From a virus, in the IMG/VR virus record IMGVR_UViG_3300005832_000153, positions 1-21,017 of that record: a stretch of DNA of 21,017 nt. One strand, given 5' to 3'. Below, in pieces: positions 4,362 through 5,733 of the stretch (position 1 is the stretch's first letter; each line of letters opens with the position of its first letter). Made by a program: the position numbers and the translations under genes. The notes under the pieces were generated by a model, which had not been told where the DNA came from, searched no databases, and saw only the letters and a list, made by a program, of their open reading frames with translations.

Positions 4362-4385
4362 AATTTTTAAATGTTTAAAGTTTTT

Positions 4386-4432
4386 AAAAAGGTGAAACCT
4401 TTTGAAATATTTAAGGGTTTCACCTTTTTTTT
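4386..4432 (+). terminator. Intrinsic terminator after the tail tube gene
   Basis: AAAAAGGTGAAACC (4386-4399) pairs perfectly with GGTTTCACCTTTTT (4416-4429), and the T run extends to 4432. With GC-rich base pairs in the stem and eight T after it, this is a canonical Rho-independent terminator. The A-rich 5' flank could also let it work on the other strand. It ends the virion transcript. Confidence 0.9.
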
Positions 4433-4734
4433 ATTTTTAAACTTTTTAAATAAAATAATTTAATCAGGAAATTACAAATATGTAAAAACCCCGCCTAACG
4501 CTCTAATTTGCGTTTTAAGCTACTTTAGGCATGAGGGCATATCAGTATATTAACTTGTGCCAGATCGTTGTTTTTAGATATAGATATTTGATTTTATTAT
4601 ATATTTTAATTAAATATCGGACTGTTTAAATTTTTTTATATTTTTTTTCAGTTTTTTTATAGCCCAAACAAAAACAAGATATAAATAGCTGAAATTATTA
4701 AATAAAAAAAAATGAAAAAAAATGAAAAAAAAGC
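4433..4734. other. AT-rich intergenic stretch with a small foldable element
   Basis: No plausible gene is seen. One sub-segment, 4493-4563, is less AT-rich and can fold. GCCTAA (4493-4498) can pair with TTAGGC (4525-4530), and AACGC (4497-4501) with GCGTT (4510-4514). GGCATGAG (4528-4535) can pair with CTTGTGCC (4556-4563) using two G-U pairs, with a short ATAT/ATAT stem inside. The first and last helices share bases 4528-4530 and would compete. The remainder is mostly A and T tracts. A-runs at about 4703-4732 lie directly upstream of the promoter at 4735 and look like an UP element. Confidence 0.5.
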
Positions 4735-4763
4735 TTGACATATTTTTTTAAATATGGTATAAA
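4735..4763 (+). promoter_or_regulatory. Near-consensus sigma70-type promoter
   Basis: TTGACA (4735-4740), a 17-bp spacer and TATAAA (4758-4763) match the housekeeping consensus almost fully, and A-tracts immediately upstream resemble an UP element. Transcription should start near 4770, at the beginning of the large structured RNA, and can run on into the early genes at 5500. This is the strongest promoter seen in the window. Confidence 0.88.
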
Positions 4764-4765
4764 AA

Positions 4766-5384
4766 ACTCACGTTTTGAGTTTTTGCGGTTCTTTAAAATT
4801 ATTTCGCGCGTCAGAACTTGCCCTGGTTTTATTCGGATCTCACTGATTGACAACGTGAAAAATTTCTTTTCTTTGATATAAGGTGCTTAATAAAACAACG
4901 GCTGACTGGGTTTAGCCCGAGCCGCTGGCAAGTTAGCATAAAAGCTTCTAGTAGCTTAAAACTCATCAGAGTCGTAAACGACTATTTGTCAAAAAATCGA
5001 CAATCCCTAAAACGGACAAGCGAAAAAAGCAGCTTGAGCACCAGAATCCAACAAGTCGCCCGACTTGTTAGGAAATCTAAATCTAATCCCCGACAAATTC
5101 AAATTTTTTCGTCCTATATATTATGTGATCAATCCGGTCAAACCGAGAATCATATAATCCCTGTTTGAAACCCGTTTAAAATATAATTCTTGTGTGAGGG
5201 TATGCTCTTGATCCAATGATCCTATTTTATGCTTAGTCATATAGGGGGAGGTCATGCACAGAGCGTAGAGCAAAGATTAAACACAAGTTGTTTTATTAAG
5301 CGAAGTATTTTAGTAGCACGGCAGGAAAAATTTGAACTAACGAATCTGAAAGGTCATATTAAGTAGGATTTTAGGGGATGCCAA
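4766..5384 (+). ncRNA. Large structured noncoding RNA (ROOL/GOLLD-like candidate)
   Basis: About 620 nt without a credible gene, richer in G and C than the flanks and starting at a strong promoter. Helices found by eye: AACTTGCC (4815-4822) with GGCAAGTT (4927-4934); a nested CGGCT/AGCCG hairpin at 4899-4924; GTCG/CGAC near 4971-4982; TTGTC/GACAA (4986-5003); AACAAGTC/GACTTGTT (5050-5069); ATTATGTGAT/ATCATATAAT enclosing CGGT/ACCG at about 5119-5157; CTTGTGT (5189-5195) with ACACAAG (5281-5287); and CCCTAAAA (5005-5012) with TTTTAGGG (5369-5376). The longest is CTTAATAAAACAAC (4886-4899) with GTTGTTTTATTAAG (5287-5300), extended by a G-C pair, closing a domain of about 390 nt. Size, ornate folding and phage location resemble ROOL and GOLLD RNAs; the class itself was not verified. 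A 60-codon frame inside is not a gene. Confidence 0.65.
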
Positions 5385-5387
5385 TAA

Positions 5388-5491
5388 TCTCCTTTTGATG
5401 GCAGCAATTAATTTTGTTGCCATCTTTAAATACACTATTTTATTTTTAAGTGTATTTAAAGATGGTAATAAATAACAATCTAAAAAGGAGA
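5388..5491 (+). promoter_or_regulatory. 5' leader with overlapping hairpins and anti-Shine-Dalgarno
   Basis: GATGGCAGCAA (5397-5407) pairs with TTGTTGCCATC (5414-5424). CCATCTTTAAATACAC (5420-5435) pairs perfectly with GTGTATTTAAAGATGG (5450-5465). The two stems share 5420-5424, so they compete at their base. TCTCCTTTT (5388-5396) is the exact complement of AAAAGGAGA (5483-5491), the ribosome binding site of the gene at 5500. The whole could close as a junction that hides this site. It may also serve as the 3' end of the large RNA. Confidence 0.5.
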
Positions 5492-5499
5492 AAAGAACA

Positions 5500-5733
5500 A
5501 TGAAAAAATTTAAATTAACATTGTCCAGTGATGAAGGTATTGTAATTGATTGTATTGACTTCGTTGTGACGGAAAATGAAGCTGAAACAAACGAATGCCT
5601 GAACGCGAGTTTTGAGGAAGACTTGGGCGGCATGTTAGTAACACATGATGAAATAAAAAGGTACGAAAGTATGGACGATATGATGATGGAACGGATTTAT
5701 GAAAGTGTTTATTGTGAAATGTTTGACAAATAA
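5500..5733 (+). CDS. Small acidic protein, first gene of the early operon
   Basis: A 77-residue, strongly acidic protein (several EE, DE and DD pairs) preceded by AAAAAGGAG. It has an N-terminal beta-like segment (KFKLTLSSDEGIVIDCIDFVV) and a helical C-terminal half rich in Met and Glu. No known domain is recognised. It is the first gene after the large RNA and the hairpin leader, so its translation may depend on the leader fold described at 5388-5491. Small acidic early phage proteins often bind and block host proteins, but that role is only a possibility here. Confidence 0.75.
   Translation: MKKFKLTLSSDEGIVIDCIDFVVTENEAETNECLNASFEEDLGGMLVTHDEIKRYESMDDMMMERIYESVYCEMFDK

Follow-up and report, generated by a model that had tools for sequence, protein, structure and literature searches.

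A structured gene-free stretch headed by a boxA-like element in a phage fragment: a candidate antiterminated leader of an early operon

Genomic setting of the gene-free stretch

The window analyzed here is a 21,017-base phage fragment from IMG/VR, classed as linear and incomplete, in which a gene-free stretch carrying a promoter lies between two blocks of genes. The left block encodes a glycosyltransferase, a head-tail adaptor, a tail completion or neck protein, a tail terminator and a tail protein (end 4361), the group-1 glycosyltransferase gene (739-1746) being located directly upstream of the head-tail connector genes. The right block comprises small genes without assigned role and genes for a DUF3150 protein, an AAA ATPase, a DEAD/ResIII helicase, a primase and a DnaB-like helicase. 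After the tail genes, a plus-strand inverted repeat followed by eight T (AAAAAGGTGAAACC...GGGTTTCACCTTTTTTTT, 4385-4432) has the features of an intrinsic terminator and is predicted to end the tail-gene operon upstream of the leader promoter. Between this terminator and the promoter lies another hairpin-forming stretch (CCCCGCCTAACGC...GGCATGAGGG, 4483-4545) which, read on the minus strand, ends with GGGGTTTTT and is terminator-like; no minus-strand gene is located nearby. ARAGORN detected no tRNA gene in the 21-kb fragment, itself incomplete. A search for the host based on the AAA protein retrieved relatives in genomes that were at most 34% identical, the nearest being found in planctomycete MAGs.

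Promoter and absence of a gene

The gene-free stretch opens with a plus-strand sigma70-type promoter (4735-4763) in which a TTGACA -35 element (4735-4740) and a TATAAA -10 element (4758-4763) are separated by 17 nt, matching 11 of 12 consensus bases, in keeping with the near-consensus promoter noted in an earlier reading of this DNA from its sequence alone (hereafter the sequence-only reading). An automatic promoter scan missed it because the scan demands a T at position 6 of the -10 element. The DNA upstream of 4735 is rich in A-tracts and, from the promoter spacing, transcription is expected to start near 4770.

The gene-free RNA would measure about 620-730 nt (4735-5499 region). The longest ATG/GTG/TTG open reading frame wholly within 4362-5499 spans 60 aa, and a codon-usage gene finder called no gene anywhere in this gap, this finder being a simple codon model which left some truly coding stretches empty. 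A conserved protein in one frame was searched for among the gap ORFs with Pfam, PHROG and tblastn, and no convincing match emerged. These results agree with the earlier view that the stretch holds no credible gene. Similarly, the G+C content of the RNA body (0.33-0.39) is higher than that of its flanks, as previously stated (0.23-0.30 just upstream and about 0.31-0.33 downstream), but it does not exceed that of the coding sequence of the phage.

Predicted folding of the RNA body

The main domain (4885-5301, plus strand) is closed by a long-range helix of 15 Watson-Crick pairs (4885-4899/5287-5301), one pair longer than the 14-bp helix previously described at 4886-4899/5287-5300. Since only 1 of 1000 dinucleotide shuffles of 4765-5395 reached 14 bp, such a helix arises rarely by chance. 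Inside this domain, the local hairpins that had been anticipated are predicted with probabilities of 0.93-0.99 at 4970-4983, 4986-5003, 5050-5069 and 5120-5158, with pairing probabilities of 0.99 for 5050-5057/5062-5069 and 0.95 for both 5120-5129/5149-5158 and 4970-4974/4979-4983. An outer helix around the RNA body (4793-4799/5307-5313, plus strand) is a prediction with a pairing probability of 0.78, and its 5' arm overlaps the boxA-like element described below.

Compared with shuffled sequences, the folding energy gave z-scores of -2.2 for 4765-5395, -3.7 for 4796-5313 and -5.7 for 4886-5300, the last segment having been picked after the helix had been seen. Three coding controls from the same genome ranged from -4.4 to -5.8. 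Because these controls are equally low, folding energy alone proves nothing, and the overall stability of the window RNA is only moderate. Within the AAA coding sequence, two neighboring segments (in 7700-8817) have z-scores of -5.6 and -5.7, matching any part of the leader.

Border with the first gene

The first downstream ORF (5500-5733, plus strand) encodes 77 aa with no family match and is preceded by a Shine-Dalgarno sequence (AAGGAG, 5485-5490). Directly upstream of the latter, a long plus-strand hairpin (5411-5474) has 24-nt arms that are 92% complementary, with no T-tract after it; a strong hairpin likewise lies near the first ORF in several of the related loci described below. Rfam matches at 5411-5474 were rejected, as they correspond to AT-rich hairpins resembling microRNA models. 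From the leader to the first ORF, only weak terminator-like stems were found and none is followed by a long T-tract.

A shorter plus-strand hairpin (AGGGGAT/ATCTCCT, 5373-5396) is predicted with a probability of 0.94 in a short construct. Its 3' arm and the TTTT that comes next are also complementary to the Shine-Dalgarno region (5482-5491), and the minimum free energy structure of the last 130 nt contains an alternative 9-bp pairing of the 5388-5396 segment with the Shine-Dalgarno sequence. In this model, the pairing of 5388-5396 with either 5373-5379 or the Shine-Dalgarno region could possibly gate the first gene as an on/off switch.

A non-coding stretch at the same place in related phages

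Relatives were reached by using AAA protein alignments as queries (39-52% identity), searches with the tail protein, DUF3150 or a single AAA sequence having found no kin. They share DUF3150, two small genes (9652 and 9986 in the window), the DEAD helicase, the primase and DnaB, arranged in two gene orders: that of the window, and a permuted one with the primase directly upstream of the leader. Twelve loci, the window and 11 others (designated by L numbers), cover the region upstream of the DUF3150/AAA block. In all twelve, across both gene orders, a non-coding stretch heads this block, with a length of 257-724 nt when counted up to the first ORF from either the motif or the expected start. The recurrence of a stretch of similar size at the same place lends weight to the part of the sequence-only reading which saw here a large, gene-free, promoter-led and structured phage RNA.

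The RNA bodies of the relatives do not align with that of the window, including by nhmmer against all the related loci collected, and therefore no homology is claimed for them. Significant similarity between bodies is restricted to some pairs of relatives such as L114 and L128. In these two, the 3' domain adjoining the first gene retains GATCCTGTGGG...CCGGCGC.ATA.AAG.TAAGGATCTG while a hairpin of 9-10 bp differs on both sides (GTCGGTG/CACTGAC versus GAGATTC/GAATCTC). Flanks that are kept around a hairpin changed on both sides support that RNA structure is kept, at least in L114 and L128; such compensatory change was seen in this pair only and not in the RNA of the window. A search of IMG/VR with this 3' motif retrieved just those two records. 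Several relatives fold better than their shuffles (L007, z -5.9; L009, -4.0; L110, -3.9; L120, -3.8), and a closing leader-trailer helix common to all leaders was not found.

Several other candidates were discarded. A 28-nt match of the window RNA in G018 and a 16-nt match in L009 fall within a gene and an ORF, respectively, and when the RNA was compared with phages and plasmids by blastn, only chance matches emerged, in AT-rich parts. The gap at 7523-8195 in L095 (673 nt, G+C 0.54) proved to be coding, and other gaps left by the gene finder are also partly coding. A search with the DEAD helicase led to three additional records: L241, with a TTGACA-17-TATGAT promoter followed by a G+C-rich leader of about 600 nt; L242, whose gap is coding; and L240, which has no such gap.

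A boxA-like element at the start of the leader

In rRNA operons, a boxA located near the promoter recruits NusB and S10 to form an antitermination complex, and it has been described as necessary and sufficient for this recruitment (PMC10250234). The published boxA consensus is GYTCTTTAANA (PMC5725501). The window contains an exact match to it, GTTCTTTAAAA, on the plus strand at 4788-4798, 24 nt after the -10 element. Over the whole window, three perfect matches occur versus 0.37 expected. The second, also on the plus strand (7434-7444), falls within the small ORF 7340-7558, which precedes the AAA gene, and the third (12610) is on the minus strand within a gene.

A TCTTT element was first spotted by eye near the leader starts, and the relaxed pattern GNTCTTTDANA was fixed after viewing these leaders; so defined, it has a single copy in 9 of the 12 leaders, versus 0.34 expected, a count reached by none of 1000 leader shuffles. 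The reversed motif, used as a control, was absent from the same 12 leaders. The remainder of these loci, about 212 kb, contains the relaxed pattern 4 times on the plus strand. The stricter GYTCTTTRANA, which is close to the published consensus, occurs in 3 of the 12 leaders versus 0.11 expected. The rate in the leaders differs from that in the rest of the loci with p = 7.6e-10 for the relaxed and 4e-4 for the strict pattern. When entire phage records are considered, the motif and its reversed control are equally rare, which indicates that the enrichment is specific to the leaders. Exceptions are L007 and L009, in which no clear boxA was seen near the leader start, L115, with one mismatch (GCTCCTTGAAAA), and the later-found L241, outside the 12, where the same promoter precedes a long non-coding leader without boxA.

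In the position of a boxB, the window has a doubtful plus-strand hairpin (ACTCA/TGAGT, 4766-4780, pairing probability 0.78). It resembles boxB but is left uncounted, since the expected start site falls within its 5' arm; hairpins seen by eye ahead of boxA in L115, L142 and L120 are clearer. Judged from the sequence, the stretch resembles rrn- and nut-type leaders on two counts, a boxA that fits the consensus and the location of this boxA soon after the promoter, with no strong terminator before the early genes.

Comparison with known large RNAs and antitermination leaders

The sequence-only reading had likened this RNA to ROOL and GOLLD by size, setting and complexity, as a possible divergent member or a new class; kinship with either is not supported by the covariance models. 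None of the 4227 Rfam families reached its cut-off in the window. At E<=5, neither ROOL nor GOLLD was found in 4500-5520, the positive control covering the ROOL model only: this same model (RF03087) finds the known ROOL of plasmid pMP118 with an E-value of 1e-29. ROOL was also absent from 27 related phage records searched with its model. A match to RAGATH-6 was discarded, with an E-value of only 0.57. On these comparisons, the window RNA appears to be none of the known giant phage RNAs.

ROOL is, like the window RNA, carried by phages or plasmids, about 570-660 nt long, driven by a promoter, highly structured and without known function. It often lies beside tRNA genes, a frequent but not obligatory neighborhood, whereas the window fragment has none. 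ROOL has been found to self-assemble into an RNA-only nanocage (PMC12286853). GOLLD is also a large structured phage RNA; it differs in often exceeding 800 nt, in its conserved 3' region, for which the window RNA has no alignable homologues to compare, and in its tRNA neighbors. In the Vibrio phage ICP1, the most abundant transcript is a non-coding RNA of about 800 nt (PMC7567579). This transcript is, like the window RNA, large, gene-free and away from tRNAs but, unlike it, free-standing with its own terminator (AACCTCGCC...GGGGTTTTCTTTT). By eye, no boxA was seen near the start of either the ICP1 RNA or the pMP118 ROOL.

In the boxB-boxA-boxC leader of rRNA operons and in lambda nut, as in the window, boxA follows the promoter closely; the transcript which it opens is long and untranslated in rrn and early in lambda. 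The window copy fits the consensus exactly. These known leaders differ in that the window has no rRNA and no recognized N protein, its boxB-like hairpin being doubtful. HK022 put is an early phage leader RNA that acts in cis on the polymerase. Compared by description only, it shares with the window the idea of a cis-acting early leader, but put sites are far shorter.

Interpretation and alternative explanations

Collectively, these data lead us to favor, with somewhat better than even confidence, an untranslated 5' leader of the early operon, with a structured body and under rRNA-style antitermination. Host RNA polymerase would start at the sigma70 promoter, at about 4770, and the nascent RNA would at once expose boxA. 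If this element works as its counterparts in rRNA and lambda nut leaders do, NusB and S10 would be recruited to it. An untranslated transcript of 730 nt is otherwise open to Rho. The NusB/S10 complex would make the polymerase Rho-resistant, allowing it to cross these about 730 nt into the early genes, while the RNA body would fold as a domain closed by the 15-bp helix. The strong hairpin before the first Shine-Dalgarno sequence would mark where leader and mRNA meet, and may be a site for RNase III or for the control of translation initiation. In its simplest form, this interpretation would have boxA open the early transcript to serve the purpose that nut sites serve in lambda, the leader being here unusually long and structured.

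The earlier description is thus partly supported: a large, promoter-driven, gene-free and structured RNA agrees with the data, and kinship to ROOL and GOLLD does not. It had overlooked boxA as well as the fact that the stretch heads the early operon with no strong terminator to cut it off from the first gene; together, these three features argue for a leader rather than for a free-standing ornate RNA.

A free large RNA acting in trans and working like ROOL or GOLLD (abundant, perhaps self-assembling) is possible, although we consider it unlikely. Cleavage at the hairpin preceding 5500 would free such an RNA from the early transcript, and boxA would only ensure its efficient synthesis. Its size, its structure, its phage setting and its place right behind a strong promoter are consistent with this proposal, and other phages, ICP1 among them, make such RNAs in bulk. 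In addition, phages are compact, and the upkeep of 250-700 nt at one place suggests a product. However, body sequence and length (250-720 nt) vary widely among phages whose AAA proteins are 40-52% identical, whereas ROOL and GOLLD are recognized across phyla by one model; furthermore, the RNA has no Rfam match and, unlike that of ICP1, no terminator of its own. A body that stays in place despite rapid change in sequence and length fits slightly better with a role in cis (structure, spacing, processing or masking) than with a conserved ROOL-like particle. Only tentatively can one envision that such large phage RNAs act in trans as a class of their own, similar to ROOL and GOLLD in role yet devoid of a shared sequence model, and with bodies that evolve fast; they would be made from early promoters through rRNA-style boxA antitermination and then cut from the early mRNA.

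It is improbable that the stretch is a DNA element, for instance an origin of replication or a site for packaging, with inverted repeats that would function as DNA. This explanation draws on the very A+T-rich segment at 4600-4735 (G+C near 0.23) with its adjoining A-tracts, on the location of the region after the primase in L007, L009, L115, L121 and L142, and on L115 and L142, where the conserved part is the AT-rich one ahead of the promoter. Against it, the structured part follows a promoter and lies on the early operon's sense strand, boxA is confined to the plus strand, with 0 copies on the minus strand, and 4735-5500 contains no direct-repeat iterons. Both functions, as DNA element and as leader, could coexist. 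Even less probable is an ordinary long 5' UTR devoted to translation control only, in which 5388-5396 would mask the first Shine-Dalgarno sequence or free it by pairing with 5373-5379: the nine-base complementarity to AAAAGGAGA and the competing 7-bp hairpin fit this scheme, but it accounts for the last 130 nt only and the masking is absent in most relatives. Finally, a decayed or unrecognized coding sequence, or a chance gap, would explain the unexceptional folding energy but is very improbable given the lack of an open frame and of protein similarity, the presence of a promoter, boxA and a helix beyond chance, and the same gap in relatives.

If the preferred interpretation, an antiterminated early leader, is correct, a widespread and unannotated phage group devotes 250-700 nt of leader to structured RNA and has borrowed an antitermination signal of host ribosomal RNA to make it. 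BoxA, NusB and Rho would then offer a testable handle on large phage RNAs, and gene-free gaps heading early operons would be worth screening for boxA.

Other features of the early regions

The permuted early module can be delineated by comparing 6357-10198 of the window with 7018-10723 of L009 and 7333-10853 of L007, all genes being on one strand. An Rfam scan found no self-cleaving ribozyme in the window. Such ribozymes are present between the early genes of several relatives, with three type-II hammerheads and two pistols in L007 (3668-6919), four pistols in L115 (8324-12356), five pistols in L142 (4196-8230) and one twister-P5 in L114 (16012-16066).
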